Shown here: positions 3,338 to 29,902 of the stretch, piece by piece | How the letters are laid out: the number at the start of each line of letters is the position of its first letter | How positions within the stretch are numbered: position 1 is the first letter of the stretch | From: Diphasiastrum complanatum | Lineage: Eukaryota; Streptophyta; Lycopodiopsida; Lycopodiales; Lycopodiaceae | Direction: 5' to 3' | Assembly: GCA_029204225.1 (NCBI GenBank) | Contig: CM055096.1 | Location: forward strand, 47,935,079-47,999,078 | Length of the DNA: 64,000 nt | Notes under the pieces: model-generated | Database searches by the model: none | The model's input: the letters and a program-made list of their open reading frames with translations, nothing else | Told to the model about the DNA's origin: nothing | Made by a program: the position numbers and the translations under genes

Positions 3338-3439
3338 AATTCTGCCTTTCAGATGTCTTGCAATCCAATTCTTGGGCTAGTTCACTCCTATGTTCAACAC
3401 GATCAATACAATGGCAGGGTTAAACAACTTTGTGTTGCA

Positions 3440-4260: not shown

Positions 4261-4289
4261 AGTGCCTTGGATCTTGAAGACTATGAATT

Positions 4290-4830
4290 GTTTTCAGCAT
4301 CGACATCTTCTGATGGCTTCTCGAAGGAGGAGTGTTGGTTTATCAATTCAGGAGCTTCGAAGCATGAGACACCTAGGCGAGAGTGGTTGTCTAGTTTTCA
4401 AAAACTAGATGATCGATCAAATGTGAAGTTGGGACTACTTGGGAGACAACTACACATATGATATAAAGGGAGTTGGGAAAGACTACCTTCATGGAAGATT
4501 GGACACATAAAGGACATGCTTTATGTACCAGGAATCAAGAAAAATTTACTCTCAGTATCAGCTATTGCAAAGCAACACACGGTGGTGCAGTTTGATGAAA
4601 AGTGGTGTCCAATCAAGAGAAAGGATAATGAAGTAGTAGCTGAGGGCATACTTGTACAAAGGTTGCACAAACTTCAGGCTCAGGTGGTGGGTCATCATGC
4701 CAATATTGTGGATATTGGATCAGCGAGTAAGTTGTGGCACGAAAGGTTTGTACATCTGATTACAAAAGTCTACAAGTCTTCAGAAATACGACATGGTTAC
4801 AGGTTTACCTCAAGTTGTTTCTAATCACAA
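4290..4830 (+). pseudogene. copia A protease and GAG-pre-integrase
   Basis: The aspartic protease motif appears as CWFINSGASKHETP, where active copies have an Asp before SGA; this copy reads Asn. After a frame break near 4460 the conserved YVPGIKKNLLSVSAIAKQ follows. A GAG-pre-integrase segment with SASKLWHERFVHL closes it. The Asp-to-Asn change and the frameshifts make it inactive. Confidence 0.8.
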
Positions 4831-5700: not shown

Positions 5701-5799
5701 AGTAAGGAAAAAGGAAGGAGAGATCAAGTATATGGGATACCTAATCAACTCCTACTTCACCTAGTAGGAAGCATCCTACATCAGATACTAGAAGATTGC

Positions 5800-6125
5800 C
5801 TAGATGGTACTATGAAACTATCAAGGATAGTGTCATTTTGGAACGCAGAGTGTCGGGCAACTACGAATGCGCCAAGTGAAGCAATATGGTTACGAAGGAT
5901 TCTACAAGATCTACATATGGTAGAAGATACAACTACAGTACTTCAGTGCAATAATCAAAGTTTGTGTCAAATTGGTGAAGAATCCAATTTTTCACAACAA
6001 GAAAAAGCACATCGAAGTACAATAACACTTCATTAGAGAGAAGATTCAGAGTGGCGAAGTGGAGCTTATCTATTGCCCTACGGAAGAGCAAGTTGCGGAT
6101 ATGTTTACCAAAGGACTTGGCAAAG
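5800..6125 (+). pseudogene. copia A RNase H C-terminal part
   Basis: The linker end (WYYETIKDSVI) joins directly to RNase H sequence: ATTNAPSEAIWLRRILQDLH, then a degraded CNNQSLCQI and, in a shifted frame, [20 protein letters not shown]. The same segments lie 1.3 kb apart in copia B, so this join marks a deletion of the entire RT. Similarity ends near 6125. Confidence 0.85.
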
Positions 6126-6858
6126 CCCACAACTATGTTTGATGCATGCTTTCACATGTAATACGAGCAAAGCCTTCAATTCCACATTACATTATTCTAG
6201 TCGAGTTCGGCATGCCTCCCATTCAACTGGAGGCTATCTTCAATTTGGTCATTTATCTATAGAGAATTTTGGAGATCCATATTTGGTATAGTTTATATTG
6301 GCATACAACAACTCTAGGCTTAGTATGCTAGCATTCTTTGGCTATGATCTACAGATATACTAAATGTCGACATATTGCTACTGTGAAGGCTGCCAATTGT
6401 TGGCCTACAACATTGTATTCGAGTTACACCGAACATCAATAGAGATACATATGCATGCTTGGAACCCCTTCACTCATGCTATAGAAATATTACTTCTAGC
6501 TAGGTGCCACTTTCTAAGATCCAAAATCCAATTCTACTACAATGAAATAATGAGGAATCCACGTTTTGATGTTCAACAATCCAAGATTTATTGTTCTTTT
6601 AAAGAGCATAATGAAAAACTACTTCCAAGCTCTATCCTAAATCAAACTAAGAAGAGCCAACTTTACAAGAAGGGAAAGCTTGTTGCAACCGCAAACTCTC
6701 TCCTCCAACATGTAAGTGAAAAAGCCACACCACAAAAATGATCCATAAAACAAATTCTTAAACAACATTCTAAAGAAAAAGAGTAGAAAAGAAAGAGATG
6801 CATAGCCAAATAGAGCTACAATGTCATGCCACCACTTAGATAAAAACAATAAATGTAC
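6126..6858. other. AT-rich intronic sequence, no gene seen
   Basis: This stretch sits between the truncated 3' end of copia A and EMC7 exon 4. A 125-codon plus-strand open frame (6364-6741) shows no recognisable family and runs opposite to the host gene, so I treat it as chance. The sequence reads as the start of EMC7 intron 4. Confidence 0.5.
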
Positions 6859-6922
6859 CGGAGAAAAGAAGTATCCCATCGCACAGACTTCAATCAGGTG
6901 AGTGCCTGCAGGGATGCCCTGA
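6859..6922 (-). CDS. EMC7: EMC7 exon 4
   Basis: This 64-bp exon encodes (F)[21 protein letters not shown]. Its acceptor is CACAAG before TCAGGG and its donor is CCG before GTACAT. Two bases carried over from exon 3 complete the Phe codon, and the exon ends in phase 0, so the next exon should begin with the Val of the family's SPVRVD motif. No such exon was found from 1 to 6858. Confidence 0.85.
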
Positions 6923-8034
6923 CTTGTGACTAGTCAAGAACCCAATATGCCAAAGTGACAAATGACAAGTGACGAATTTCTACAACTAGCAACTAAACAA
7001 CTAATTATGACAACTCTACATTATTCCAATTTTGAGAAGCTTAGCTAGAAAGGGATACAATGAGAAGTAGCCATCAGGCCTTATGAATGTGATTCGTTGC
7101 CCTCCATTTAAAATGATCTTTACGTTTGCAGCTTTCACTTGAAGACCTACAAAGCAATTGAAAAAATACTAGGGGTGAAACTTCAACAATATATGTGGAT
7201 AAAAACATTGTAAATCTCACACGAAGCAGTTAAGATTAACCTAATAATCACAATAATAAATTGTACATTACGTGAGAAACAAGGATAAGAAAACACTTTG
7301 TAGAGACATCATGAGGGACTTCCTGGTAATTATAAATCTTATTTACACTTGAAAATAAAAACGAAGGCATGATAGTATACCTTCTATTCTGATTTTGCCT
7401 TCTACAACAAAGCCATCCTCACTCCTGCCAAGTTTAAACTATGAGGAATCAAACGAACAAAGTGTATCAAAGATAACTAAAAATTGGATTGAAATTCATA
7501 TCTATAAACGTCTCAATGGTACTTGTCATGCTTTACACAAGTCATGAACCTTTATTATGTATTTAGAAAGAACTAAAAGTATATTTGAAAACTAACATTG
7601 TTTTAACAAATTTGACTCATACAAGGATGAGAACTTCACAAATTAAGAAATTGATCTTACAAACGTTTCATTGATTGCTCCAAATAATATCTCGGTTACA
7701 TTTGCCTACCAATGAGCAATCACAAAGCTAGACTTACCTAAAGAGTAGTTAATTTACGAAATGCACTCACTAAGCTTGGCATAAAACTTAAATCTCAATA
7801 CTAATCTTGGGCTTTTCTCTTTTATTAAACATTTTTCTCTAGTAGAAATTCCTTACTTTAGCTAAATTGAAAGTGTATTGAGACATTATTTTTGAAATAA
7901 ATAAAATCAAACAATCCTAAACTGAATCGAATCAATCGATCTAGTAGAAAATAAACGTGTATGTATGTGCATTGTGTGTACATATATATGTACACACATA
8001 CATACAAATGTGTGTATGTGTGTGTGTGCGCATG

Positions 8035-8089
<55 letters not shown>

Positions 8090-8982
8090 TAGATGCACTG
8101 CGATTCTGAATGGCGATTCAGAATCGCGATCAGAATCGAGATTCAGAAACGCGTTTCAGGATTTTCCCAGAATCGCGCAGAATCGTTTTTTTTTTTTTTT
8201 TAATTTTTTAGGCAATATGGGTATCAGATGAAAGCTCTAATTGAGAGCATTATGACTGTGTAGTTTGCTGACTGTTTCGGGTGCAAAACACCAAAAAGTG
8301 TGTTTTCACTCAAGGAGTTGGAAGGTCAAATCATGAAGAGGTAGTGCGAATCCATACTCCGGTACCGCGGGACCATGATGGTCCGTGGTGCCATAATTTT
8401 TTTTTTTTGCTTTTTAAAAAAAATAATAAATGCATTTATGCAGGTTGCCGGTTCTAACGAGAGTAGTGCATTTATGCAAGTTGCTCCAACTTCTAATGAA
8501 TGCCTCTCAATGTGGTAGTTATATAGTACCAACCACCATCTGAGAGAGCGAACAGCCAAAGGACCAAGGGGACGCAAAACACCAAAAAGTGTGTTTTCGC
8601 TCATGGAGTCGGAAGGCCAAATCATGAAGAGGCCGTACCGTCGGGGTCGGGGTCTACCGGCAGCCCCCAGACCCTGCCATTGGGGGGCTCTACCCCCCAA
8701 ACCCCCCAGAACTTTCTGCTATATAGAAACTGTAATCTAGCCATCTCATAACCATCATGGTCTCACAGTAGACCCTATACTAACAACCATGCCCAATAAC
8801 GGCTTCTCCATAATGGGGGCCTTACAAATTTGAGCTCGCGGTTAACTAGTGACTACTAAACTGAGAGGTGCATTATTTAGTTATGTCTAACACATTTTGT
8901 AGCTGAAACTACCGGCAACCTACATAAATGCACTACTCTCGTCAAGAGCTTCAAGCTGATACCCACATCGCCCACTAAAAAA

Positions 8983-9014
<32 letters not shown>

Positions 9015-9765
9015 CATAGATGCACCGCGATTATGAATCGCAATTCAGAATCACGATCAGAATCGTGATTCAAAAACGCGTTTCGGGATTTTCCCAGAAT
9101 TGTGCAGAATCGTTTTTTTTTTTTAATTAGGCAATATGGGTATCAAATGAAAGCTCTGATTGAGAGCATTATGACTGTGTAGTTTGCCGACTGTTTCGGG
9201 TGCGAAACACCAAAAAGTGTGTTTTCACTCAGGGAGTTGGAAGGCCCAAATCATGAAGAGGCCTCGTCGGGGCCGAGGTCTACCGGCAGCCCCTGGACCC
9301 CGCAGTTGGGGGGCGTTGCCCCCAAAACCCCCCACCGGAGGGCTACCACCCCCCGGACCCCCTATTTCTCAGGGGGCTGTCGCCCCCCGAACCCCCTGTT
9401 TCTCGGGGGACTACCGCCCCCCGAACCCCCTAGAGCTTTCTACTATATAGACACTGTAGATAAAAATGCTACCGCCCCCCCTAAAATAAAAATGGGGTCC
9501 AAATGCGCGCCAAGAAGTTGTAGGATTAACATTTACTGAAAACCAAAGCAAATGACGACCAGATAGCTACTGAAAATAAGATCTGTTTGTGCCTCATCTA
9601 CTGCACTTCTGAGAGGCAAAACGCTGGTTTGACCATTAATCCCCTAAAAAATTTCAGCCATAAGCTATTTTTCCAAAAAAAAAAAAAAAAAAAAAAAATT
9701 GATTCTGGGTTCAAAATCGCGATTCGTGAATCGCGGACCCAGCGAATCGCGATTCGGTGCATCTA

Positions 9766-9842
<77 letters not shown>

Positions 9843-12800
9843 TAGATATAGATATAGATATATATATATATATATATATAAGGAAGCGGATGGCGGACGC
9901 GGACGCGGACGCGCGTCCGCGTCCGGACAGGGACGCGTCAGGGGTGCGTCCGCGTCCGGACGCGTCCAATTTTTCTCAAAAAAAAAAATACAGGCACCTG
10001 TCTACACTGCCCCCATCCCAAAAGCAAAATAAAAACAATATATGGCCCCTGTTTTTCCCCCGGAATTAATTATCAGAGGGTGCCTGTCACCCACCTGCCC
10101 CCTCCTGTTAAAAAATAGGAAAACAGTATCGAAAAAATTTCCAAAAAAATTTGCAACAGACCTAACCACTAGGCCATGCCTCTCATAACCTCAGTATTAC
10201 TAAACAACCATGGCCAATGAGCAGTTCATAAATTATTACGAACCTTCATTGGGAACTAAGCTCCAAAAAAGCGGCAAAGAAAGATCTGAGAGTGGTTTTG
10301 AGAGAAGGTTTGTATGGCAAACATATTACTGCCCCAAGGTTTAGAAGTGAATGCTCGCCAGAGGATTGGGGAAAGGTGAACGCTCACCATAAGAGTGACA
10401 AGCTCTCAGGAGCAGAAGTCTCTGGGGGAACTTAGGGCTCACCAGAAGAGTGACAAGCTATACACTACTGTGACTCGGTTTAGGGGATCGGTTTCTTCCC
10501 GGATGAACTTCAACAGCTTACTAATTAGTTATGGCACTACTCCAACTTGCTACAATACGATGTCGAAATTTTGCGTACCAGCACGGGGGCTCCGAAACAT
10601 CTCCCAGTTTTCAGATCCCGACCGAACAAAGTGTCCCTGAAGCCCTATTTAACGTCGAACTTCGGACGAACGATGCGGCCCGACCGTCGAACGTTTCCTC
10701 GTCCTGTTTGTTCGCACAGGTTCATATCGAAACGGATCCCGTTTGAAGAAACGGGGCCGTCGGACGGAGAGTTGCAAAATGTGAAGCTGCAGTACTCGAA
10801 CTGCGTGTCTTCGCTCCATTGAAGATTGTCAAAATAGCAGTCTGGAGGTCTTCTTTGTCTTGTTGACCTTCGAGGTTCGTTTCGTCGCTGCTCGAACATT
10901 TCTTGTTCGTGGGGTCGATCCTCTGTTTCCTGCTGCTCTAGAGTCTGGGGGCCTGCATTCTGATTTGATGTCTGTCCTCGATCTCCCTCTTGAATAGGCA
11001 GCAGTGTTAAGATCTCATGGCCTCTTTCGTCTTTCAGTCCAGGGAATGTGGACTCGTCGAACTTTACATCTCTGCTCGAAACAACCTTCTTCATGGTTGG
11101 ATCGTAGAGTCTGTACACATGTGTTCCGTTCGAGTAGCCAACCATGATTGTTTGCTCGGATTTGTCGTCGAGCTTGCTTCTCTTTTCCTTTGGAATGTGC
11201 TTGTATGCTGCACATCAAAACACTCGTGCGTATGATAGATCAGGCTTTCTGCCTGTCCACATTTCGTATGGTGTTTTGTTCTCCAGCGCTGTCGTTGTAG
11301 ATCTGTTCTGCAGGTGTACAGCTGCAGCTATTACCTCGGCCCAGAATTGGCCTGGCAATTGAGCCTGTGCAATCATGCATCTGGCTCCTTCAACTAGCGT
11401 TCTGTTTTTTCTTTCTGCCACACCGTTGTATTCTGGTGTGTATGCAGGAGTGAACTGGTGTTCGATCCCCTGTTCTTCGCAGAATCTTGAGAATTCTGTG
11501 CTTTTGTATTCACCTCCATTGTCAGATCTAAGTATTTGTATCCTTTTCGAGGTGTGTCGCTCTGCGAATGCCACGAACTCTTCAATCTGCATGAGTAGAT
11601 CTTCATTTATGGACGAAACGATGATCGCCATTGCGCGCTCATCCTTTCTGATCCATTCAGCTCTCCTCGGGTCTCCCTCTGGACGCTGCACCTCTGAGAG
11701 CTCGGTCACCGACCAGATGCCTTCGCCCTTTAGGAGTGTTTTGATTTTGAAATTCCAGATTCTGTAATTTGCGCCATCGAGACTGATTGCTACTCTGGTC
11801 TGGATAGTCGTAGCCATATTATGTTGTCTGGAAGAATCATTGCTGGGATATCGGTAGTGATAACCTGTTGGCTTTGACACCATGTCGCAGAAGGGAGACT
11901 GTTTCGTGTTCGCCTTCTCCCTCTCTTTCCGCGAACAATTTTCTTTCTTTTGAATTTTCTTTTCGAGCGGAAGCCCTTACAGGATCCCAGACACTCGACT
12001 ACGATCACAGAACATATTTTATTCTAGCAATCAAGACACACGGCACAAGACAAAGAGATACACGAAAATAGAGCGACTATATTGTCAGTTTGGTTTTGGA
12101 GCGAGATCGTCAGTGTCTCGCTCGTTGGCGGATTGACACTCTGCTCTTACGCTGTGTTATGCTCGTTGGCAGACTTTCATGCACAGCTATGGTGTCTTTA
12201 CTTTCTTACTCTATTCGCTACGTCTCTCTCTGTCTCTTACAGATCTCTGTATTCACATCTCTTTTTATGATCCAGAGAGGATCGTTTTACCTCCACTATA
12301 TGGAGTTTACAAGATAGCGTTGAATCACATGACTAGTTAACGCTAATCAACTAGTTAGTTAGTCTCCGTCGTTGCTACTCGTTTCAGCTGGGCGTGAAGC
12401 CCGTTGAGCTGTCAGCTAGCAGCGCGAAAGATTTTTCTTCGTTTGATTCGTAATCTCCCGTTTGCTTTCGTTCTTTTCGTAGTTTTCGTTTTGCATCCCT
12501 TTTTCGGTTTGCGGTCCTGGAGGTGTGTTTTCGATTCGCGAATGATTCGCGAATCGTTCGTGCTTTGAGTCAAAGACACGTTGACTGTCGCAAATCGTTC
12601 TCGTTCAACCTTCGTATCTTGTTCGTGCTTCGACAAAGTTGCAAGAGTTCACCATTTCTGACAAACTTCAAACTTCAAATATTTGAATTTAGAGAAAGAT
12701 ATTTGAATTTAGTGAGTGGGAGGGAAGGGGTAGAGAATCTTATTGGGGCCCACCCCTCAATGCACACAATATGCAAATGTATGGGGATATGCACTTTCCC

Positions 12801-13515
12801 CATACATGCATCCCCCTCCCCATCACTTTTAGTTAAGAAAGTGTGTATGCATGGGTGAGGAGAGGAGGATGCATGGGTGCACCCATACACATGCGCACAA
12901 ATAGTTTTATATATATAGATATATATATCATAGATGCACCGCATTTCTGAAACGCATTCAGAATCGCGCTCAAAAACACGGTTCGGAAACGAAATTTCAA
13001 AAAAATTCCAGAAATGTTTTTTTTTATTTTTTTTTTTGGTTTTTTTTTGGGCAATATGGGTATCAGATGAAAGCTCTAATTAAGAGCATCATTATTGTGT
13101 AGTTTGCCGAGTGTTTCGGGTGCAAGATGGTCCAGTTCAAGTCAATTAATCCATGTTGGGTTCTGTCAAGGATAAAAATTCAAAACTAACCTCTAGCTTG
13201 TTCGTTACAATCACAGATGGTCCCAGTAAGTGTGTTTTCGCTCAGGGAGTAGGAAGGCCAAATCATGAAGAGGCTTTACCGTCGGGGCCGAGGTCTACCA
13301 ACAACCCCTGGACCCTGCCATAGGGGGGCGTTGCCCCCCAAACCCGCCACTGGGGGACGGTAGCCCCCCGAACCCCCTGAGCATTTATTGAAAACCAGAA
13401 CCAAAAAGCTATTGAAAATAAGATCTGTTTGTGCCCCATCTATTGCACTTTTGAGAGGCAAAACGCTGGTTTGACCATTGATCCCCTTAAAAAATTCAGC
13501 CATAAGCTATTTTTC

Positions 13516-13551
<36 letters not shown>

Positions 13552-13616
13552 CAATTATGGTCTGAGAAACGCGTTTCTCATAAACGCGGTTTCCAAAACG
13601 CGTTTCTGTGCATCTA

Positions 13617-13678
<62 letters not shown>

Positions 13679-16600
13679 ACACACACACACACACACACAC
13701 ACAACTTATTGCAATATTCACATCAAAGGTGATGCATCCAGTAAAGACTCTTTAAGTAACTTCTATTTATCGATATAGAAATAGCTTTAAAATACTAAGA
13801 GAAGATAGAGAACTCGCTGGGCCCATTAGTACTTTTTAGTTACTTATAATTGGCAAATAGGAAGTATAAATAGACCCATTACTTTCATTCATAGGTGCAC
13901 AAAAACACATTTCTAGAAAAAAAAAATGTTTCTAGAAACGCGTTTCAACTTTCTTAGAACCTCGATTCTAAATTCAGAATCTCTGGAAATAAAAAACAAA
14001 TACAGTCTCCAAAAGAACTAGCTAATTAACAGAGACTATACAATTAAACTAAGAAACTAAAATAAATTGTGTTGGGTTATACTTGCAACTGCATCTCATA
14101 AAGTGGAGTATGATTAGAAAGCAAATCCATGTGGATGAAAAATGGCACGATGGTAGCTGAAGTACAAGTAGTTGACCATGCAATCACCACCCAGCGCCTA
14201 GACATGGTGGACGTGGAGCAATATGACGGAGCGTACGACCTCCGGTGGAGTGTGTAGTGTCTCTACACAATGTTAGAGTACGATGTCGAATGGAAATCTC
14301 TCATTCTTGTGAGGAATTAATGTTTGGCCATACTTGCGTGCTATTATAGGGGCCATTTTTATTTATAGTAAGTCTTTTTTTTATTGTCATGCATGTAGGT
14401 GGGCGCACTACTATTAAAATAGGACTTGTTTTTAGTACTTAGAGATACATCTTGGGTCTTTACCCAAAATAGGTAGTATTAATAGCAATTAACTTTTTGC
14501 CTTAGCTATTGCTTTTGCTTTTAGCTAGACTAGAGAATCTATATAAGAGAGGCCGGTGCCCAACCACAATCATTCCATTGTATAGAGCATAGTTGCACTG
14601 CGTTTCTAAAAACGCATTCAGAAATGAGTTTCTAAAACGCGTTTCTGGTTTGGGACAACGTTTCTCAAAAACGTTTCTTTCTAATTTATTTATTTTTATT
14701 TTTGTGGACAATATGGGTATCAAATAGCATTAATTAAGGGCAATACACTTACGTAGGTTGCCGAATGTTTCAAGTACAGTGTGGTCTAGTTTAGGTGCAT
14801 TAATTCCTACTAGATTTTATCAATCCCTATTGATTTTTTGATATCTGTTATTTTTCTTTTTCCAGAGATTCTGAATCCAGAAACGAGTTTTTGAGAAAAA
14901 CGTTTCTAAACGTTTTTCTCCAAAGACGCGTTTTTGTGCAACTGAGTGTTTGGAAGTATTGCTTATGCTCACATACCTAAGGATTCAAGGAGCAAATTGG
15001 CTTCAAAGGCGACAAAATGTGTATTCCTTGGATATGATAGTCAAGAGAAGGGATACAGGTTGCATGCTTGGAGGGTAAGAAAGTCATCATAAGCAGGGAT
15101 GTGATCTTTGATGAGGATGGATCTCATTAAAATACAGAGATACCTTGTGATAGGAAGCAAGATGGAGGAACTCCTATCTTGTGTGACGAGTCATTACAGG
15201 AGCTTGAATCGACACATGTATCGCATGCACCAATCCAAGTACCTAGAGTGACCATGGTTGAGAAAGGAAAAAGAAAGGAGAGATCAAGTACATGGGATAT
15301 TTATCCACCTCCTACTTTGCCATGCAAGAAGCATCCTGCATCAGATACTAGAAGATTGCCTAGATGGTACTATAAAACTATGAAGGATATTGTCATTTTG
15401 AAACAGGGAGAGTCCAATACACATGGGACTAGGAGATCGGCTAGGCTTGAAAAGCAACACGAAGATCAGGATCAACATGAGGATCATCATGAGGATGGGA
15501 ATGTACATTGTGCATATATGGCCACAGTATTGGAAACCAAGGATCCATCTACTTTCAGTGAGGCTGAAAAAGAGGACATTTGGAGGAAAGTTATGGATGA
15601 GGAGTACGACTCGATCATGAAGAATGAGACTTGGCGACTTGTTCAGTTACCTACAGGTAAAAAGGCCATTGGATGCAAGTGGATCTATAGAACTAAATAC
15701 AAATCGGATGGTTCTATAGATAAACATAAGACAAGATTGGTGGCAAAAGGTTATGCTCAACAGGACGGGATTGATTATGAAGAAACTTTTGCACCAATTG
15801 CTAAGTCAACTACTATGAGAACAGTTTTATCACTAGCAGCTCAGTTTGGATGGGATATTCAACAAATGGATGTGCAGAGTGCATTCCTGAATGGATTTCT
15901 AGAGGAGGAAGTCTACATGGAGCAGCCAGAGGGATACATAGTAGGAGGACATGAAGACAAGGGTTGCAAGTTGGACAAGGCCCTATATGGACTTATGCAG
16001 GCAGCCAGGGCATGGTACACAAGGATTGACACATACTTTGAGGAGCTTGGCTTTCAGAGGAGTAGTCTATAGCCTACACTTTATGTTTTGATCAGGGATG
16101 GTCATATTGTGATTACAGTGATGTATGTGGATGACCATGTTATCATACGATCAGATCATGGTGTGATTCATGATATCAAGAAAGATCTCTCATTGGAGTT
16201 GGAGATGAAAGATCTTGGTTCACTACAATATTTCCTTGGGATTGAGGTATGAAAAGTAGCAGAAGGGATATTTATTTCTCAATCTAAGTAAGCTCATGAA
16301 CTTCTCGAAAAGGTCAATATGTCAGCATGCAAGGCATTTTCTACGCCATATGATAGTGGATGTAAGCTTACTAAAGTTGAGGAGGACCAGGATGTAGACA
16401 AGACGGTATATAGAAAGCTTGTTGGAAGCTTACTCTATCTAACTACAACATTATGTCGTTAGTATGGTTGGTCAGTTTATGGCTAAGCCTAAGCAGATTC
16501 ATTGAAGAGCTGCTAAGCGAATACTCGGATATAGCCAGGGTACATTGAGGTTTAGTGTTCTCTATGGGAGACGGATGATTTGTAGTTATAGGGATATGTG

Positions 16601-22600: not shown

Positions 22601-25600
22601 CAATTGGAAAAGCTTGCCTTTGAAATTTTCCAAGTATGCATCCTTCGCATGCATGTCCTTCGGGATGCTCAATGTCTTCAACCATATTGAATCTCTTCAA
22701 CATCTTCAAACTAGCAAAGTTGAGATGTCCAAACCTAGCATGCCATAATTCAGCCAACTCCAAAGAATGTGAACTTGATGCAACAAGACAAAAGGATGAT
22801 GAAGCTCTTCGCTCATAGGTATCCATAAGGAACAATCCACCACGTAATGTTCCCGAAGCAATGATCATAAGAGATCTCTATGGATCTTTGATAAGACATT
22901 TGTCTTCTTTGAATTCCACAACCAATCCTTGGTTCATAATTGTAGAGACCAAAAAGAGATTCTTTTTTATTTTTAGAACATAAAGTACATTACGAATGTA
23001 CTTCTCCTCACCATTGCGTAAGATAATGGGGATCACTCCAATACCTTTGATAGGATAAGAGGTGCTATCAACACCTTGAACTTTGCTTCCATCATGCACT
23101 TTTACAAGCTTTGTGAAGACTTCTTTGTGATAAGTCATATGGCGTGTGGCACCGCTATCAATCACCCAATCAATAGATGAAAAAACAGCAACTTGTAAAG
23201 CTGAAGATGAGCTGTTTTCTACTGAAAAACCAGCAAGATTTGAAGTGGCAGAAATCTCGTCTTTAGGAGAAATGAAATTATTAGTGACAAAAGCATAATC
23301 ATTATTGAAGATTATCCTCCTTTTCAAATTGTTATTCCAAAGCAATGATTGCGGTACTTGTATCGTTACCTTTCTCTTTTTCCTTTGCAAGTCTCTTCCT
23401 ACATTCTTTGATGTGATGCCCAAACTTCTTGCAATAGTGGCACTTACCCTTCTTCTTGGAGCCTTGATGTTGAGCTTCCTTAGATTTTTTATCATCTTTG
23501 GAAGTGTTGAAAGAAGGCTTCCCTTTCCACTTGCCTTTGCCTTTGCCTTTTGCAAAGAAAGCTTGATCTTCTTGTTCACCAAAGTTGATCCTTGTTTGCT
23601 CTTCTTGAAGAAGTAAGCCAACAAGTTCGTTGAAGGAGATTAGCTGTCCCCTAAGAGAAATGCTCAATGATGACACAAATGGAAGGTAAGAATTAAGAAG
23701 AGAGTTGAGAGTAATAGATACAAATTGTGAGTTCTCAATCACCTCATCAATACTAAGAAGCTCCTCTCAAAGATCCTTGATCTTCGTCAAGTGGTTTGTA
23801 AGCAAATCACCTTCTTGCATCTTCAAGATAGAAAGTTGATTTCGAAGATATACCACTTTTGCCGCATTCTTTACTTGAAACATCTTGGCAAGAGTCTCCC
23901 AAGCACTTTTGAAAGTCTTGCATGATCTAATATGAGGAAGGATAGAAAAACGGAATGTGCTTGTGCATCTCGTCGATCCCACTTCTTTTGCTCATCGGAA
24001 GACACCTCAGTAGATGATGAAGTAGTTGTTCTAGATGGTGTAATAGATGCCAAGGTAGGCGGCCTCTCTTCATCACCATTAACTACTTCTCACAAACCTT
24101 TAGCAATTAGAAGGTTCTTTATCACGTAGCACCACAACGAATAGTTTGTGCCATCCAGCCTATCTTCATTAAATAAAGAACCAATAGACTCCGATTCTTT
24201 AGCCATAACAGAAAAAATCAACTTGTAGTAGATAGGAAATAGACTTTCCAAGACATAATCTACTAAGGGCAGCAACCTGAAAGCTAAAATTATGAGCACA
24301 ATAGATTGCAATACTCCACATGCAATTTGCTCAATAAGTAATGAAATAGGTGGCTGATTTCTGCACAAAAAACAGAACGCTCACAAATAGGTAGACTTCT
24401 ATATATATCTATTTGTGAAATTAAAATATATCCAATTTCACAAATTTATATAGAGAAGTCAGTGATGTCATAAGGTAAACCTTAGAAACAATATACAAGC
24501 AACTCAAAAGTCAAAGGATCTAAGTCAAAACAACAATAAAAAAAATAAACAAAAAATCTTAGCCAAATAGCATTGCTTATGTCTCATCAGTACCCAAGCA
24601 TAAGTTGCTAACTGGGTTTCAAAAGAATCCGGATTCAAATGAAGCCAAAACCAAAACCAAAAATTTGTGGCTAAAATGAGTGCACATTATGTGCATATAG
24701 AGCTGATGGTAGCGCCCTACTCCAAGCTCACCAACATGGAAATTTCAGCAAGAAATGTGTTTAAAACACATGTATCTTCGTTTAAGAAGTAAATCTAAAA
24801 TTTTCAGCATGTAATTGAGTCAAAATCACATGCAATTTGCAATTGGCTTGAGCATGGGCGCCCCTACTGCTAGCTCTCAAATAGGTGAAGGTGCCCTGCA
24901 ATTTCCTACAAAAAACCTACAAGAAGATGAACAAATTCTTCTCCTACAAAAATCAGCAGCTTGATGATTTTCTGCTACCAAAAGGGGAAGAAGATAGTTT
25001 CCTATTGGGCGCCCTCCTGCAAGCAATTTGATCACCTAAAAGCTCTGATACCATGTAGGAAATAGAAGCCTAAGGATCCAGAATCTTAACTATTCAATCA
25101 CACAAAACATTCTCAAAAGAAAGAGAGAGATGGCTAGAAACCCTCTTGTAGAAACTCGTGGAAAGCCAAGGAGAATAGTCAATATTGCTTACAAAAGTGT
25201 CTCATACAAATGGGATGCACACGTATATATAGTCCAAGATGACTATCTAACTTCATGACTATTGGCTATCCAACTACTTGACTATTGGCTATCCAACTAC
25301 TTGACTATTGACTATCCAACTTTCTATAAGTTACATAGAAAGAATAAGGTACCTCCAATATGTCAAGTTGGGGTACTTAATGTCACAATTAGGCCTAGTG
25401 GACCCATGAGTCCCTACCAAGTTAATTTCATACTAACTTAGCTAACTCTAAGTTTTCCGAATCTGTGTCTGTGTCTGTGTGGATCAGGTCCTATTTTGGA
25501 CCAAAAATTCTATTATGGATCAGGTCCTATTTGTCTGTCCAAATCTATTATGGATCAGGTCCAAATTTGTGTCTAAATCAGGTCCAAATCTGTATACAGA

Positions 25601-28600
25601 CGAATTTGGTAATTAAATAATTGATTAATTAATTAAATACTAGAACCGTACCACGGTTCAATGAACCGGGGTACGGTTCCAAGGACCCACGGTTCTGGGA
25701 ACCGTGGGTTCTATGGGTTACACAACTCTCGACCTTTTGGGTCAAAGTAACCTATGGTAATGTAAGCAATTCCATTTACATTCCAACACAACCATGCAGG
25801 TTCACGAGTCACCGATCAAGTCAACAAGCCCAGTCATCGTTCAGTCTCAAGTTAGGTTTGGGACCCAAGGGGATTGGGTCCCTAACAATTACTTTGCTGA
25901 TTTTTTAGTGCATTGATTTCTAAATCCTCTAGTTTTTTGTTTGAATTAGCAACTTCACGTTTTGTTGTGAACAATAGCAAGATGGGTGATAAACTTGACT
26001 CTTTGATCCTTGAATGAATCTAACAAACTTGATGATGGCATTTTAAAATGAAGAACATTCTTGTTTCAACAAATTTATGGGGATTGTAACAGGCTTGGAA
26101 ATCACGCCCACCGTTCCAAATAGTGCACAGCCAAGTCGAGATTGACAAGAGGTCAAAAAGAGCACTATGCGTAATCAATATACCCATCCACGACAAGTAT
26201 GCAACTCATGCCTTTTGGCCTTTGGGTTTCCATTTTCCAATTTAAGTGTGCGGTTGTTCATAGTACTCGCCAAGATGGAGAATGTAGCTAGTATTCATTC
26301 AATCAAGCTCGTCTTAGCTTCTTTTCCTTTGTTGTCCCATTGTCTTTGTAATTTTTATATCTCTAGATTAAGGCTGAATGCTTCTTGTTTTCTAACATTT
26401 TGTATCAAGGATAGGTAGGCTAACACTCCTTTTTATGAAGTTTTGCAAAGTCTATTAGATCACAAGAGCTTCATCTTTAACCATTTCATCAATTCTAGAG
26501 AGAGAAATTGGGCCCCGTTTTAAGAAGGGAAATTGTTTTTTTTCTTCATAATCTTGTAAGGAAAAGAGTTTCTATTTGGATCTAATATCTTCTAAATAAG
26601 GACAGAAGGAGCCTAGGAAGTGAAAAACTAACAACTATTGAAACTGCTAGATATTGGGTAGCATTTAATTGTTGACTTTAAGAGACGATTAATTTCTTAC
26701 CTCTCTAGTTTTGTCTTTGGAAATAGCAACATGAGTGATAGACTTGAGTATTATAATGATCAATTTCTCATTAAAAGCATGAAGAACAAAGACCGTGTGA
26801 TTGCAAGTGGATCAAAGGCTAATGCGGCAATCTTCAGAAATTGGAAGTTGTTTTGGATTTACAAACTCTTTGGTGCAAAATCTTTGGCATGATATAAGTC
26901 ATCTTTGGCATGAACAATATGGTCACCTACCTTATCAAAGCTTGAAGCTTCTTTACAAGAGGCACATCATAAGAGGCCTTCCCAAAATCCAAAATCTTGA
27001 ACCCATCACGTGTTTGTAAGGCTTTGGGCAAAGCACAATAGAAGCAAGTTTCCATCAAGTGGCACATGGAGGACAAAGGCATTGGGCAATTCTAGATCTT
27101 GTCCATTCCAATCTATCGGAACTTCCTCAAACACTATCTTGGGAGGTGCTTTTTACTTCATGACTTTTATTAATGACGAATGTTGGATACAAATTTTTAA
27201 GAGCAGATCACAAGCATTTGATCTCTTTGTTGAGTTCAAAAATTTGATTAGAAATCGAATGCACAATAAAATATGATGCCTAAGAAGTCATAGAGGTGGA
27301 AAGTACATCTCTAATAAATTTACAAATTTTTGCATAGAGCACAAAATTAGGAGGCAACTAACAACAACTTACAAGCCTCAACAAAATGGTGTATCGCAAA
27401 AAAGAATCATACAATTGCTGAATGTGCTCAAAGCATGATGAAGGATATAGGTTTACCAAATTCCTATTAAGTTGAGGCTGTCCACGCTGTGATTTAACTT
27501 CAAAATCGCTCACCTTTGAAGGCATCGGAATTTAAAACACCCGAAGAGGTGTTTTATGGTAGCAAACCATGCGTTTTCTCACTTGAGGACCTTTGGTTGT
27601 GATGCTTACGCACATGTACTCGATAATTTACGCAAGAAAGTTGATAATAAATCATATAATCTTTATTGGCTATGCTAAAAAGGAAAAGCATGTTGATTGT
27701 TTAATCCAAAAACTAAAAAGATCAGCGGAGACTAAATGGATGGAGTGGCCTGGTAAGAGGGACTAGCCTAACCCCATGGAATATAGGAAGGATAATCGAA
27801 ATTTGGGGCAGTGGGTCCAGAGGGAAGAAAAATGTGAGTGAAAGTCGGGGTGCCGGGATACTCAGGTGTGACAGATGCGTCACAGTATCATGTGTCCTGC
27901 GCGCTGCCTCCTAAGTAAGTGTCTCTCGAAGGAGTCCCTATGACGAGATGTGTTAAGATGACGTGGTGGACTCATGACTACCTCAAGCGAATCATCGTCG
28001 CTGCCACAACCTCCACAACATGAGACACTGACGCAGCTCCTCCTACACTCAATGGAGAAATTCTTTGCTGATTTTCTACAGAAAGCAGTGCACAACAGAT
28101 ACATCACCACGTAAGGCAGCCACAAAGCTTCCAAAATGCCATTTGAATACTATTGAAGATGGACACATTTGGAGCATGATCGGCAAGGAGATCAAAGAGT
28201 TTTCAGAGGGAAAACTCATTGTCGAACAAATCTGGACTTTGCTTCAATGTCTAAAGTACTAAGAGACGACAAACCTAACTCCTTTGAAGATGCATCTCAA
28301 TTTAAGGCTTGGATGGACGCAATGAAAGAAATGCATTATTCTAATTTAAAGAATAACACTTGGGTGTTTGCGAAGAAAACCAAAATCAAGTAGCCAATCA
28401 GCACCAAATGGGTGTACCGAATCATATACAATTACAATGGTGACATGGACAAGTTCAAAGCAAAATTGGTGCCTAAGGGGTATATGCAAATAGAAGGTAT
28501 TGACTATAACAGGACTTTTGTTCCCATACATGTAGTTCTCAAACAAATGCCACTCTTCTCCATTGAGTTATTGCCCAATCTGTCCGTCATCTCCATCCCT

Positions 28601-29902
28601 AATATTGTCACATATGTTGAGCAAAATGCTTCTCTTCTTCTATAACAATCTCCCACAGACCCGTCCCCTTCCCCTCCATATATTGTCACATGTTGATCAA
28701 GATGCTTCTCTTGTTCTGTAACAATCTCCCATAGACCTCTACAATCTCCACTCACCATTTTCAAAACTGAGAGTTGGTGTCTCCTGCATAAAAATAGCCT
28801 AGCATTCCTTGTAAGCAAAGTAACTGCCCGTTCTTGTGCTGAGACCATGTGAGCATAACCTGTAGTAAATCATAATTGTCACAGCAATACCAAGTGAATC
28901 AATGGTATCAATCAAGTCAATATATAAAGCAGATAACCTAGAGTGAAACCAAGAGATGCTGGACTGAGGCAGTTCAGAGTGCAGGACAGAGGGTATGAAG
29001 TCAAATCCGATAAGAGACAGCACAGACTAACAGCAAAGACATAAGACATGCTGAAAGTATAGGAGACGTATTTTAGGCCCTCATGTCCAGAAAGAAAATC
29101 ATCGTTGGTACAGGGACTCTTCCAAAGGCATCTTCCAGCTTCAATTTAGGGATGACAGGTTGCGATCTCTAGTTTCCAAAAGGAAGCGTTAATCATAAAG
29201 GGCAGCTTCAGAAGCTAGTCCCAAGCGACGATGTGAGGCATTAATACCAAAATTTGAAATTCCGAACTATTCGGGAAACACAATTTGAGCATGCTTTCAG
29301 GGCATCCAACAAACGATCCACTGCTACAGCTACCAGAGTCAACATTTCTGTAAATAACAACACTATTTACACCCAAAGCTTCATACCTTATCAATAAATT
29401 TTCCTCAAAAGAGCATAATGATCAATCTGAACAAATTAAGATCCAAAACCCTAAAAACCTTTTATCTCATAAATCCATGAAACTTCACTCCAACGATAGA
29501 GGTGCTACCAACAGTTATTAAGCATGTTTACGTAGCCAGTATGACCAATTTTTTTTTCTTGTATCAAAATGGATAACTTGACATTGTAGCCTCTATTACA
29601 CCTTCCTTTGACACTCAAATAAAGTATATCAATAACAACTCAACTGCCCGGTTGTATTCAAAGTTAGGCGCATAAGAACTATGTCAGACGCTCAAGGAAT
29701 TTCGGAAACTCAAAATAGAACAGAATCTCAAGTATTTTGAGAATGATAAATACCTAGCCGGGGCTTCAGCGAGTGCAGATGTGATCTGCAACGACACCAG
29801 AATAAGGAGGCAACGAAGTAGATGAGCAAGAGCGAGAGGGCGATCGCTGCAAAATGAAGCCTCCTGTTTGTGCCTGGCTAAACGATCCACCGCCATCGCC
29901 AT
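6859..29902 (-). CDS. EMC7: EMC7-like gene, ER membrane protein complex subunit 7 (5' part: exons 1-4)
   Basis: EMC7 is a subunit of the ER membrane complex, which inserts tail-anchored and multipass proteins into the ER membrane; its lumenal beta-sandwich is anchored by one C-terminal membrane helix. Four exons (29902-29754, 7424-7381, 7146-7059, 6922-6859) give 49, 15, 29 and 22 codons with phases 2, 1, 2 and 0 that all match, and every border is GT-AG. They encode a signal peptide ([15 protein letters not shown]), then [46 protein letters not shown] and MGYFFSPV. These are the family's hallmark segments in the usual order. Intron 1 is about 22.3 kb and full of transposons. The C-terminal half, including the membrane helix, is not in the window. 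It could be a truncated pseudogene, but no stop or frameshift is seen in the exons. Confidence 0.82.
6923..7058 (-). other. EMC7 intron 3 (136 bp)
   Basis: A short intron with donor GTATCC after TTCTCATT and acceptor ending in CACAAG, read on the minus strand. It contains no repeat. Confidence 0.75.
7059..7146 (-). CDS. EMC7: EMC7 exon 3
   Basis: This 88-bp exon encodes [17 protein letters not shown] and then [12 protein letters not shown], the most conserved block of the EMC7 beta-sandwich domain. The acceptor is a pyrimidine-rich CAATTGCTTTGTAG; the donor is TCATT before GTATCC. The first base of its Gly codon comes from exon 2 and its last two bases continue into exon 4. No stop or frameshift is present. 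Confidence 0.88.
7147..7380 (-). other. EMC7 intron 2 (234 bp)
   Basis: A compact intron with donor GAAG before GTATAC and acceptor TTTGTAG. It is AT-rich and has no identifiable repeat. Confidence 0.75.
7381..7424 (-). CDS. EMC7: EMC7 exon 2
   Basis: This 44-bp exon encodes (R)[14 protein letters not shown](G), matching the start of the mature EMC7 lumenal domain. The acceptor is AAACTTGGCAG before GAGTGAGG and the donor is GAAG before GTATAC. Its phase fits exon 3 downstream and exon 1 at 29754, about 22.3 kb upstream. Confidence 0.8.
7425..8038 (-). other. EMC7 intron 1, transposon-free 3' end
   Basis: AT-rich sequence directly upstream of exon 2. No open frame or repeat is recognised until the (TA)n tract and the first inverted-repeat element near 8039. 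Confidence 0.5.
8039..8087. repeat. (TA)n microsatellite
   Basis: About 49 bases of pure TA repeat directly abut the left end of the first small inverted-repeat element. An alternating GTGTGT/TGTATG tract lies just before it (7955-8035). Confidence 0.95.
8089..8999. mobile_element. small inverted-repeat element copy a, rearranged
   Basis: The left end starts CATAGATGCACTGCGATTC, followed by CGCG palindromes, a T-tract, the conserved GGCAATATGGGTATCAGATG block and a G/C-rich block. The distal part (8840-8985) holds the conserved block again in reverse orientation (minus-strand GATGTGGGTATCAGC and TAGGTTGCCGG), and 8431-8490 repeats part of it. So this copy is either a fold-back structure or two members inserted into each other. 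No ordinary right terminus is seen before the next (TA)n tract. Confidence 0.6.
9000..9014. repeat. short (TA)n tract
   Basis: A TA repeat separating element copies a and b; it is the left flank of copy b. Confidence 0.9.
9015..9767. mobile_element. small inverted-repeat element copy b (complete, 753 bp)
   Basis: Both ends are present: CATAGATGCACCG at the left and its exact reverse complement CGGTGCATCTATG at the right. Each end continues into GAATCGCGATTC-like palindromes and then a homopolymer tract (T at left, A at right). The interior has GGTATCAAATGAAAGCTC, GTTTGCCGACTGTTTCGG, a G/C-rich hairpin array and CGCTGGTTTGACCATTAA. There is no coding capacity. (TA)n flanks both sides, which suggests insertion into a TA microsatellite. 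It is a non-autonomous DNA-transposon-like (MITE-like) element of a superfamily I cannot assign. Confidence 0.75.
9300..9440. repeat. G/C-rich hairpin array inside copy b
   Basis: Four imperfect units of roughly 35 bases each contain a G run, a short loop and a C run (for example GGGGGCTGTCGCCCCCC followed by GAACCCCCTG). Each can fold as a hairpin. Shorter versions occur at 8660-8710 (copy a) and 13320-13380 (copy c). Confidence 0.7.
9768..9880. repeat. (TA)n/(GATA)n microsatellite
   Basis: About 110 bases of TA repeat with interspersed GATAGATATAGA. It flanks inverted-repeat copy b on the right and the GGACGCG element on its other side. Confidence 0.95.
9882..10330. mobile_element. putative related element with GGACGCGTCC palindromes
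   Basis: Adjacent to (TA)n, this segment begins with tightly packed GCGGACGCGGACGCG and GCGTCCGCGTCC words (9888-9968), followed by an A-tract, the same architecture as the inverted-repeat family ends. Its interior shares CTCATAACC and CAACCATG-CCAAT words with 8738-8810 of copy a. A facing terminus was not found. A tRNA A-box-like TGGCCTAGTGG lies on the minus strand at 10166-10176. Confidence 0.4.
10331..10639. other. non-coding sequence with a 54-bp spaced direct repeat
   Basis: The words GCTCACC-(A/G)AGAGTGACAAGCT recur near 10382 and 10436, and a weaker relative (GAATGCTCGCCAGAGGATT) occurs near 10350. No coding similarity is seen. The left boundary of copia K pol sequence is near 10640. 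Confidence 0.4.
10645..11145 (-). pseudogene. copia K integrase C-terminus and linker
   Basis: A 166-codon frame beginning [16 protein letters not shown], then [19 protein letters not shown], the classic C-terminal part of copia integrase. A charged linker rich in Glu, Gln and Arg follows ([19 protein letters not shown]), of the type that precedes RT. The last third duplicates the linker theme ([15 protein letters not shown]). The RT that should follow is absent. A frame break separates this from the upstream integrase core near 11215. Confidence 0.8.
11215..11817 (-). CDS. copia K in-frame gag::integrase fusion ORF
   Basis: The start at 11817 ([15 protein letters not shown]) is chosen because the upstream Met at 11883 lies across the LTR end and primer site. 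About 70 codons of gag ([32 protein letters not shown]) pass without a stop into the distal integrase core ([47 protein letters not shown]). The second catalytic Asp and the Glu are present. The HHCC finger and first Asp are missing, so integrase activity is not expected. It most likely arose by internal deletion that kept the frame. Any expression would be from the adjacent LTR. Confidence 0.75.
   Translation of the reverse strand: MATTIQTRVAISLDGANYRIWNFKIKTLLKGEGIWSVTELSEVQRPEGDPRRAEWIRKDERAMAIIVSSINEDLLMQIEEFVAFAERHTSKRIQILRSDNGGEYKSTEFSRFCEEQGIEHQFTPAYTPEYNGVAERKNRTLVEGARCMIAQAQLPGQFWAEVIAAAVHLQNRSTTTALENKTPYEMWTGRKPDLSYARVF
11870..11882 (-). promoter_or_regulatory. copia K primer-binding site
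   Basis: Minus-strand TGGTGTCAAAGCC directly after the LTR end ...GCGACA. It differs from the initiator-Met complement TGGTATCAGAGCC at two positions. Confidence 0.75.
11883..12663 (-). repeat. copia K 5' LTR (781 bp)
   Basis: On the minus strand it runs from TGTCAGAAATGG to CTTCTGCGACA and is followed directly by the primer-binding site. Words shared with the copia J LTR (59666-60220) include TTGCAACTTTGTCG and TAACTAACTAGTT. GATTCGCGAATGATTCGCGAATC-like palindromes lie at 12532-12555. No second LTR is present. Confidence 0.8.
12664..12928. other. intronic spacer with a short TA tract
   Basis: This holds no gene. It has GGATGCATGGGTG-type words and ends in a short ATATATAGATATATAT tract that forms the left flank of inverted-repeat copy c. 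Confidence 0.5.
12929..13618. mobile_element. small inverted-repeat element copy c (complete, 690 bp)
   Basis: The left terminus is CATAGATGCACC and the right terminus is GTGCATCTATG, each followed inward by GAAACGCGTTTC-type palindromes rather than the GAATCGCGATTC type of copy b. The interior shares GCAATATGGGTATCAGATGA, the G/C-rich block (13320-13380) and CAAAACGCTGGTTTGACCAT with copy b. It carries a private segment near 13125-13215 and a (TA)n tract (13521-13549) in place of the A-tract. TA repeats flank both ends. Confidence 0.75.
13619..13702. repeat. compound (TA)n(GA)n(CA)n microsatellite
   Basis: Runs of TA, then GA, then CA follow the right end of inverted-repeat copy c without interruption. 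Confidence 0.95.
13890..13990. mobile_element. isolated end of an inverted-repeat element (copy e)
   Basis: CATAGGTGCACAAAAACAC followed by GAAACGCGTTTC and ATTCTAAATTCAGAATC palindromes matches one terminus of the family. No partner end is seen. The surrounding 13703-14268 has no other recognised content. Confidence 0.5.
14269..14586 (+). repeat. truncated copia LTR (copia B, 5' side)
   Basis: It begins TGTTAGAG and matches the LTR at 2858-3337 through GCATGTAGGTGGGCGCACTA and the GCTTTTAGCTA-type T-rich stretch. It is cut off at the left terminus of inverted-repeat copy d. Confidence 0.75.
14591..14943. mobile_element. small inverted-repeat element copy d (353 bp)
   Basis: Perfect 8-bp termini AGTTGCAC and GTGCAACT, each followed by AAACG(C)GTTTC palindromes. 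The interior keeps GACAATATGGGTATCAAAT and GTTGCCGAATGTTTC. It lacks the G/C-rich block, so it is the shortest member. It sits exactly where the copia B LTR stops and integrase sequence begins, and no TA microsatellite flanks it. Confidence 0.7.
14946..15178 (+). pseudogene. copia B integrase C-terminus
   Basis: Reads [20 protein letters not shown], then [17 protein letters not shown] and [12 protein letters not shown], the standard end of copia integrase. A one-base frame change lies near 15065 and a stop follows near 15128. Confidence 0.85.
15179..16072 (+). CDS. copia B linker and RT N-terminal ORF (297 aa)
   Basis: The longest clean retroelement frame in the left half. It starts in the integrase-RT linker ([15 protein letters not shown]) and continues through RT fingers and palm: [58 protein letters not shown]-like sequence (here TRLVAKGY), [20 protein letters not shown] and [17 protein letters not shown]. 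It ends at a TAG just before the segment holding the catalytic YVDD. The product would be an RT lacking its active site. The Met used here is simply the first in frame; the true product would be part of a polyprotein. Confidence 0.85.
   Translation: MCDESLQELESTHVSHAPIQVPRVTMVEKGKRKERSSTWDIYPPPTLPCKKHPASDTRRLPRWYYKTMKDIVILKQGESNTHGTRRSARLEKQHEDQDQHEDHHEDGNVHCAYMATVLETKDPSTFSEAEKEDIWRKVMDEEYDSIMKNETWRLVQLPTGKKAIGCKWIYRTKYKSDGSIDKHKTRLVAKGYAQQDGIDYEETFAPIAKSTTMRTVLSLAAQFGWDIQQMDVQSAFLNGFLEEEVYMEQPEGYIVGGHEDKGCKLDKALYGLMQAARAWYTRIDTYFEELGFQRSSL
16073..17048 (+). pseudogene. copia B RT C-terminus and RNase H
   Basis: Past the TAG the frame continues with [18 protein letters not shown], where the catalytic YVDD is intact, then [14 protein letters not shown], a stop, and [15 protein letters not shown]. 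RNase H follows in changing frames: [39 protein letters not shown] and [20 protein letters not shown]. At least six stops or frameshifts are present. Confidence 0.85.
17049..17205 (+). repeat. copia B polypurine tract and truncated 3' LTR
   Basis: AGGGGGGAG at 17049-17058 is followed by TGTTAGGAATTAATGG. The LTR ends abruptly near 17205 against minus-strand gypsy integrase. Confidence 0.75.
17213..18009 (-). pseudogene. gypsy C integrase
   Basis: The HHCC finger is visible ([20 protein letters not shown] ... [10 protein letters not shown]). The catalytic core retains the Asp in [13 protein letters not shown], the second in [14 protein letters not shown], and the Glu of DGQTERTN. A frame break falls near 17470 and a stop at 17277. 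Beyond it SMEDML joins [16 protein letters not shown], with the intervening stretch lost. The C-terminal chromodomain side is absent because the element is cut near 17205. Confidence 0.9.
18043..18425 (-). pseudogene. gypsy C RNase H
   Basis: Two overlapping frames carry the Ty3/gypsy RNase [21 protein letters not shown] with the active-site Asp, then [16 protein letters not shown], and after a frameshift [20 protein letters not shown] and [13 protein letters not shown]. The family normally reads VTDHQALK, so the Asp of that motif is Tyr here. Confidence 0.9.
18430..19272 (-). pseudogene. gypsy C RT (catalytic segment deleted)
   Basis: It begins at [20 protein letters not shown] (19081-19272 frame). 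Next come [36 protein letters not shown] and [14 protein letters not shown], in several frames. The segment that should hold the catalytic Tyr-x-Asp-Asp is missing. Sequence then resumes at the thumb/connection ([20 protein letters not shown]). Non-functional. Confidence 0.85.
19324..19962 (-). pseudogene. gypsy C protease region (212-codon ORF)
   Basis: The C-terminal half fits a gypsy retropepsin-like domain: [20 protein letters not shown], then [16 protein letters not shown], where related proteins have ILG-DWL. No clear DSG/DTG catalytic motif is visible. The N-terminal half ([19 protein letters not shown]) matches nothing I know and may be residual gag or rearranged sequence. Only about 280 bases separate it from the primer site, so gag is largely deleted. 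Confidence 0.55.
20238..20250 (-). promoter_or_regulatory. gypsy C primer-binding site
   Basis: Minus-strand TGGTATCAGAGCC, an exact initiator-Met tRNA type site, lies two bases beyond the LTR end ...GACTAACA. Confidence 0.9.
20253..20606 (-). repeat. gypsy C 5' LTR, inner segment
   Basis: The part of the LTR next to the primer site, in plus orientation starting TGTTAGTCTCCC. It is interrupted at 20606 by copia D; the outer 95 bases resume at 25793 and end CCCTAACA at 25887. The reassembled LTR would be about 449 bp. Confidence 0.8.
20607..21041 (-). repeat. copia D 3' LTR
   Basis: Plus-orientation start TGTAGGAAATAGAAGCC, matching 25054 onward through CTATCCAACTACTTGACTAT and ACACAACTCTCGACCTTT. 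The outer end, on the side facing the element interior, is degenerate; its exact border could be 15 to 60 bases further right. Confidence 0.8.
21042..21530 (-). other. unassigned sequence where copia D should carry RT and RNase H
   Basis: A 91-codon minus-strand frame (21251-21526) reads [20 protein letters not shown], later [18 protein letters not shown] and [16 protein letters not shown]. None of this resembles RT or RNase H. The next frame (21034-21246) is rich in Phe and also unrecognised. It may be captured host sequence, another element's remnant, or chance coding potential. Confidence 0.4.
21531..21960 (-). pseudogene. copia D linker region
   Basis: Follows the integrase C-terminus ([20 protein letters not shown], then DEKTS). 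A Ser- and Gln-rich linker continues (21463-21825 frame: [20 protein letters not shown]). In intact elements RT would start soon after; here it does not appear. Confidence 0.65.
21961..22868 (-). pseudogene. copia D integrase
   Basis: Well preserved: the HHCC finger ([16 protein letters not shown] ... [13 protein letters not shown]), core Asp in [16 protein letters not shown], second Asp in [13 protein letters not shown], and Glu in [17 protein letters not shown]. The tail continues [19 protein letters not shown] and [15 protein letters not shown]. One frameshift near 22298 divides it into two frames. All catalytic residues are visible, unlike in copia A and I. Confidence 0.92.
22878..23330 (-). 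pseudogene. copia D protease and GAG-pre-integrase start
   Basis: The protease motif is intact: [15 protein letters not shown], followed by [20 protein letters not shown] and [20 protein letters not shown]. The frame (22878-23624) overlaps gag in another frame, consistent with a frameshift between gag and pol. A stop at 22878 separates it from integrase. Confidence 0.88.
23332..24206 (-). pseudogene. copia D gag
   Basis: The start is placed at 24206 ([19 protein letters not shown]), giving the usual gag opening (LDGTNYSLW). Then [40 protein letters not shown] and [13 protein letters not shown]-type sequence. A canonical CCHC knuckle closes it ([14 protein letters not shown]). Stops or frameshifts near 24095, 23985 and 23765 break the frame. 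Confidence 0.88.
24207..25037 (-). other. copia D 5' leader
   Basis: Untranslated leader between primer site and gag, about 830 bases. Three GCGCCC(C)TAC/CTCC-containing words recur near 24710, 24865 and 25005. No open frame of note. Confidence 0.55.
25038..25053 (-). promoter_or_regulatory. copia D primer-binding site
   Basis: Minus-strand TGGTATCAGAGCTTTT directly adjoining the LTR end ...TTTCCTACA. Confidence 0.92.
25054..25792 (-). repeat. copia D 5' LTR with a 257-bp private segment
   Basis: In plus orientation it runs from TGTAGGAA to TTCCAACA. Relative to the 3' LTR it has one extra copy of a 24-bp unit (GGCTATCCAACTACTTGACT region, 25262-25310) and a 257-bp segment at 25456-25712. 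Confidence 0.85.
25456..25712. mobile_element. hairpin-rich insertion in the copia D 5' LTR
   Basis: Present only in this LTR copy; the other LTR has about 26 unrelated bases here. It contains repeated GGATCAGGTCC words and two perfect 10-bp inverted repeats: GAACCGTACC (25643) with GGTACGGTTC (25670), and CCCACGGTTC (25686) with GAACCGTGGG (25699). No coding capacity. It could be a small inserted element or the result of deletion in the other LTR. Confidence 0.5.
25888..26729. other. non-coding spacer, no gene seen
   Basis: AT-rich sequence upstream (on the plus strand) of the copia L remnant. Related words (AATAGCAA-ATG-GTGATA-ACTTGA) near 25970 and 26725 hint at a local duplication. The 83-codon frame at 26167-26418 resembles nothing. 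Confidence 0.4.
26801..27720 (+). pseudogene. copia L GAG-pre-integrase and integrase
   Basis: [19 protein letters not shown] gives the integrase finger start, then in other frames [50 protein letters not shown] and [20 protein letters not shown]. The catalytic AERKN is replaced by SQKRI and RGGEY by RGGKY. More than ten stops and frameshifts are present. Confidence 0.8.
28255..28545 (+). pseudogene. copia L RT N-terminal fragment
   Basis: [20 protein letters not shown], then a stop and [39 protein letters not shown]. These are the RT fingers of a copia element. Similarity ends at about 28545, before any catalytic motif. Confidence 0.85.
28590..28740. repeat. imperfect tandem duplication of about 75 bp
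   Basis: ATTGTCACAT-TGTTGA-CA-ATGCTTCTCTT and TAACAATCTCCCA-AGACC recur at 28605-28665 and 28680-28740. Confidence 0.7.
28741..29753 (-). other. EMC7 intron 1, exon-1-proximal part
   Basis: No domain is recognised. Some minus-strand stretches look mildly coding (28799-29023, 28504-28848; [20 protein letters not shown] after an AG), but none joins the EMC7 frame. I read it as intron, possibly with a remnant of another host gene. Confidence 0.4.
29754..29902 (-). CDS. EMC7: EMC7 exon 1 (signal peptide)
   Basis: From the Met at 29902 ([17 protein letters not shown]) this gives 49 codons plus two bases. A hydrophobic core ([17 protein letters not shown]) ends in TSALAEAPA, a plausible signal peptidase site. 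The donor is GGCTAG before GTATTT. The two leftover bases AG plus the first G of exon 2 form an Arg codon, so the phase fits. An alternative upstream Met at 30007 stays in frame. The link to exon 2 rests on phase, signal-peptide character and order, not on a transcript. Confidence 0.65.

Follow-up and report, generated by a model that had tools for sequence, protein, structure and literature searches.

The locus raises the question of whether four short exons lying among retrotransposon remains belong to a complete EMC7 gene, and whether two of the introns of that gene are as large as they appear. We analysed a window of 64,000 nucleotides (G000:C5:47935079-47999078) from a 1.745-Gb assembly of Diphasiastrum complanatum in 5176 contigs, the locus falling within a 77.9-Mb contig. 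Negative positions lie to the left of window position 1, and L001 denotes the stretch there that carries exons 5-7 (L001:2700..1932). A sequence-only reading of the window had proposed four exons of 149, 44, 88 and 64 bp that together encode the beginning of EMC7. We recovered all four on the minus strand, where they share one frame and are bounded by GT-AG, and their 115-aa concatenate matched the Pfam EMC7 model PF09430 at 6.8e-08 (33.2 bits; cut-off 26.6). Because the concatenate reaches the model by itself, the four-exon match is more than chance.

Exon 1 (29754..29902, 149 bp) provides the start codon and a signal-peptide-like N-terminus and ends in phase 2 at the donor TAG/GTATTT; it is the least certain of the exons. 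Exon 2 (7381..7424, 44 bp) is bordered by GCAG/../GTATAC and is where the alignment to human EMC7 starts, at residue 52, and the beta-sandwich domain begins in exon 3 (7059..7146, 88 bp). Exon 4 (6859..6922, 64 bp) has the acceptor ACAAG/TCAGGG, with another AG 4 nt downstream. The family motif GYFFSP is present in exons 1-4, and the V that completes GYFFSPV is encoded by the opening codon of exon 5, on the far side of intron 4. Exon borders were picked by frame plus GT-AG, so the matching phases arise partly by construction and are weak proof alone; this choice matters most at exon 4, where use of the CAG 4 nt further on would disrupt the frame.

The remaining exons had been expected to the left of position 1, and exons 5, 6 and 7 with an in-frame stop were found there. 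We searched 47 kb (40 kb left of the window plus window positions 1-7000) with a C-terminal segment of a generic plant EMC7. The three best matches (5e-14, 9e-13 and 3e-07) clustered on one strand, and the next best scored 0.15. They correspond to exon 5 (-7300..-7419, 120 bp) and exon 6 (-7565..-7673, 109 bp), each with GT-AG borders, and exon 7 (-7983..-8068), which ends in the stop codon TGA with its last base at -8068; all three lie on the minus strand, outside the window. With them the 219-aa EMC7 frame is complete and intact, including a C-terminal hydrophobic segment and the stop. The location of exons 5-7 rules out an EMC7 fragment whose remainder is missing, and the presence of six introns rules out a processed copy.

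The resulting model has seven exons in order on the minus strand, encoding 219 codons plus a stop in an uninterrupted frame of 660 nt, and spans 37,971 bp from ATG to stop. All six introns are GT-AG, and their lengths from intron 1 to intron 6 are 22,329, 234, 136, 14,158, 145 and 309 bp, so that every intron other than 1 and 4 measures 136-309 bp. Intron 4, previously known only to exceed 6.8 kb, occupies window positions 1..6858 and continues to -7299, giving the 14,158 bp measured to exon 5.

The full protein is recognizable as EMC7 by several comparisons. It matched the Pfam family EMC7_beta-sandw (PF09430) at 8.2e-23 (81.3 bits; cut-off 26.6), with residues 68-173 covering profile positions 5-122 of 122. 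It also matched human EMC7 (PDB 6ww7 chain G, 6ww7_G) at 1.2e-18 over residues 52-205, and 8eoi_G, likewise named EMC7, at 1.1e-10. Like human EMC7, it has a beta-sandwich domain followed by a C-terminal membrane segment, and it is 2 residues shorter than the human protein near the exon 2/3 junction. At this junction (7059-7146 / 7381-7424) it also seems several residues shorter than angiosperm EMC7, in a GFGLP-like stretch. By hydropathy only, the peak falls at residues 170-184, with the six top 15-aa windows all inside 169-188, and this is where the membrane span of the EMC7 family is expected. We regard the architecture and homology of exons 2-7 as demonstrated at the sequence level.

Exon 1 calls for separate treatment, since it alone sets the size of intron 1 (7425..29753, 22,329 bp). 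Our first, crude signal-peptide filter (a 12-aa core with mean hydropathy >=2.4) passed five of the 106 minus-strand starts within 7425-30200, and exon 1 was not among them. A second filter was set afterwards with knowledge of exon 1, and combined a 10-aa core >=2.2 with a positive start, a small-x-small site and a purine-GT-purine donor. Of the 408 minus-strand combinations within 7425-64000, only those of exon 1 passed, with two possible starts. The plus-strand control of the window yielded six passing donors among 508 combinations, so the single pass of exon 1 is within chance. Nothing passed in the other controls, which comprised 33 combinations from the minus strand of 1-7424 and 407 from L001-L004, where both strands were used.

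These results bear on an alternative in which a genuine EMC7 gene has its first exon somewhere else, with 29754-29902 a chance or unrelated open frame and the 22-kb size of intron 1 wrong. Exon 1 has no homology support, the first filter preferred five other candidates to it, and the filter that does select it was altered after the first result and passes control donors as well. Several features of exon 1 nevertheless argue for the assigned exon. Its phase and donor fit exon 2, it begins ATGGC, as do none of the eight plus-strand control rows, and it has 55% GC and a CpG observed/expected ratio of 0.89 against a background of 39% and 0.52. In GC content, the 300 bases from 29754 are equalled or exceeded by 17 of 1474 sliding windows, and in CpG ratio by 145 of 1474. 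In the protein search of the genome, exon 1 matched at this locus only. We consider 29754-29902 likely to be the true first exon, and a first exon elsewhere fairly improbable. The 22-kb intron of the original reading accordingly stands as a measured length that hinges on the weakest exon. Were exon 1 wrong, that intron would fall, whereas the 14-kb intron 4 would stay, since both of its flanking exons have homology.

Both large introns contain retroelement sequence. We scanned a partial set of their open pieces with Pfam at E<=0.001. Retroelement domains were found in 7 of the 9 pieces scanned in intron 1 (out of 16 pieces >=110 aa), in 2 of the 4 scanned in the window part of intron 4 (out of 6), with that at 4462-4821 below the Pfam cut-off, and in 4 of the 5 scanned in its left part (out of 10 pieces >=90 aa). 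At this threshold no Pfam domain was detected in the intron 1 pieces 21466-21840 and 28507-28869 or in the intron 4 pieces 5013-5432 and 6364-6738. Copia-type domains occur in both introns, as do some that we take to be gypsy-type. The earlier reading had named a series of copia and gypsy elements in intron 1; their retroelement nature is borne out by the Pfam domains, but not their status as whole elements.

Within intron 1, the clearest domain is a copia-type reverse transcriptase on the plus strand at 15131..16069 (RVT_2, 3.2e-50). Retroelement remains at 10648..11976 on the minus strand include SH3_retrovirus (1.4e-23), together with rve and copia gag matches below their Pfam cut-offs; all matches of the piece 11218-11976 are weak and below cut-off. 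Also on the minus strand, an Integrase_H2C2 domain (17485-18042) and an RVP_2 protease (19327-19995) make up the stretch 17485..19995, which we assume to be gypsy-type. A further minus-strand region, 20607..25455, holds copia-type pieces at 22299-23639 (gag_pre-integrs and Pol_BBD, with rve below cut-off) flanked by LTR-like copies at 20607-20985 and 25054-25455. The two copies differ at 9 of 378 sites (K=0.024, with 25 gap columns left out; 91.6% identity by BLAST with gaps), and a search around this pair turned up neither a target-site duplication nor a matching far end. A small repeated element family also occurs in intron 1, at 8068-9804 and 12908-13655, its pieces 77-91% alike.

In intron 4, copia-type remains on the plus strand at 3558..4821 carry Retrotran_gag_2 (1.4e-23) and a Pol_BBD match below the Pfam cut-off. 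A 480-bp direct repeat, 96.5% identical between L001:9326-9805 (-674..-195) and window positions 2858-3337, spans the left edge of the window. The copia-type gag piece follows its second copy (2858-3337). An SH3_Tf2-1 domain, presumably gypsy-type, lies on the minus strand at L001:7969-8322. Given the LTR-like pair of intron 1 and this repeat, some of the insertions look recent. Upstream of the gene, the LTR-like pairs 32712-33726/41646-42666 and 52845-53659/58014-58887 look older (K=0.15 and 0.13, vs 0.024).

Repeats are the usual place of misjoins, and transposon sequence misplaced between neighbouring exons would inflate introns in just this way. However, neither the window nor the adjoining 40 kb on its left contains an N, and the locus is interior to its contig, so we regard such an assembly artefact as extremely unlikely.

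We then considered whether the genome holds another EMC7. A search of the assembly with the protein itself returned seven matches at E<=10, all seven being its own exons; exon 2 alone was weak (E 0.605), and the matches at exons 5 and 2 include a TAG that belongs to the intron sequence immediately preceding the exon. A composite angiosperm-like EMC7 gave five genome matches, all of them to exons 3-7 of this locus, with identities of 57-71%. A second, more canonical copy should outscore this locus with such a query, and none was detected. The rival locus that would have undermined the gene call thus did not appear, EMC7 being detected at this locus only. Scanning the whole genome with Pfam PF09430 produced no matches at E<=0.001 (five candidates), this locus included; we read this as the family model lacking sensitivity for a gene split among small exons, and not as a sign that EMC7 is absent. 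Because that scan missed even this locus, exon-wise searches can miss copies, and single copy here means single detectable copy. A second EMC7 as the working copy was sought with both the own protein and the angiosperm-like composite, and neither found one.

An intact frame does not by itself distinguish a living gene from one that has only just died. We simulated the neutral decay of a dead copy over 657 nt, with 4000 trials per divergence level. At 2% divergence 14.7% of trials had acquired neither a stop nor an indel, and at 4.4% this share was 1.1%; counting stops alone, 71% and 48%, respectively, were still free of them. The LTR-like pair of the intron 1 copia implies about 1.2% divergence per copy, and set beside the simulation so young an element makes the intact frame only moderately informative. 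The locus might then be a recently dead pseudogene disabled by its transposon load, its function either gone or provided by a copy that the assembly lacks: one intron 1 element looks young (K=0.024), decay might not show yet, and the exon 4 acceptor is weak. Against this, the 660-nt frame, the borders and the family motifs are all intact, and no other EMC7 copy was found in the assembly. A functional gene is the simplest reading of these same observations, and we judge the pseudogene very unlikely. With high confidence, then, this is an intact seven-exon EMC7 gene of Diphasiastrum complanatum, the only one detected in its genome, and from its sequence the complete copy is probably working.

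For this intact gene, we propose that retrotransposons inserted into introns 1 and 4 while the other four introns stayed at 136-309 bp, and that the gene would have withstood the insertions since they are spliced out. Correct splicing of the long pre-mRNA is suggested by the intact frame and the consensus borders. The product would be a subunit of the ER membrane protein complex, with complex membership and function as predicted from its family. Its layout would comprise a plausible N-terminal signal sequence, a lumenal beta-sandwich, a C-terminal membrane span and a short tail.

The exon 4 acceptor (6919-6925, minus strand) reads ACAAG/TCAG/GG, an in-frame AAG followed 4 nt on by a frame-shifting CAG, and the CAG is a possible source of aberrant transcripts. 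One could go further and suppose that the sole detected EMC7 is a splicing-risk gene, in which the 22- and 14-kb transposon-filled introns and the weak AAG acceptor of exon 4 could make its output respond to heterochromatin within the introns and to nonsense-mediated decay. We think this quite unlikely; if true, it would tie membrane-protein insertion to transposon silencing. Genes with intronic transposons and such a dependence on silencing are known in plants.

The sequence-only reading was correct in its gene call, and the gene is biologically ordinary. What the analysis adds is a completed model for an apparently single-copy gene, encoding a subunit of the ER membrane complex and set within 38 kb of DNA rich in transposons. 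Annotation that masks repeats could break up or overlook EMC7 here, and if EMC7 is absent from the annotation of this genome, an annotation gap would be likelier than gene loss. Otherwise the locus is one further example of the documented pattern of transposon-swollen plant introns.

As for the complex itself, a complete EMC is reported in at least one plant representative, among other lineages (PMC4602282). A narrow query for EMC7, plant and intron together found no paper on plant EMC7 intron size. Transposon-swollen introns are documented and are common in some large plant genomes, and the EMC7 case is not novel in that respect. One likeness is to Chloranthus spicatus, which has long introns rich in LTR retrotransposons: LTRs are reported to appear as the major contributor to them, and 876 of 2184 orthologues to exceed 20 kb (PMC8626473). 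Picea glauca offers a second likeness in having few very long introns per gene. That study gives most studied genes only 1-3 very long introns, which there means only >1 kb, and describes the repeats in captured genes as mostly short fragments (PMC4108047). Relative to the EMC7 family, the distinguishing feature here is a gene spread over 38 kb; relative to the plant long-intron cases, it is that the affected gene is EMC7 and that the affected introns are 1 and 4.
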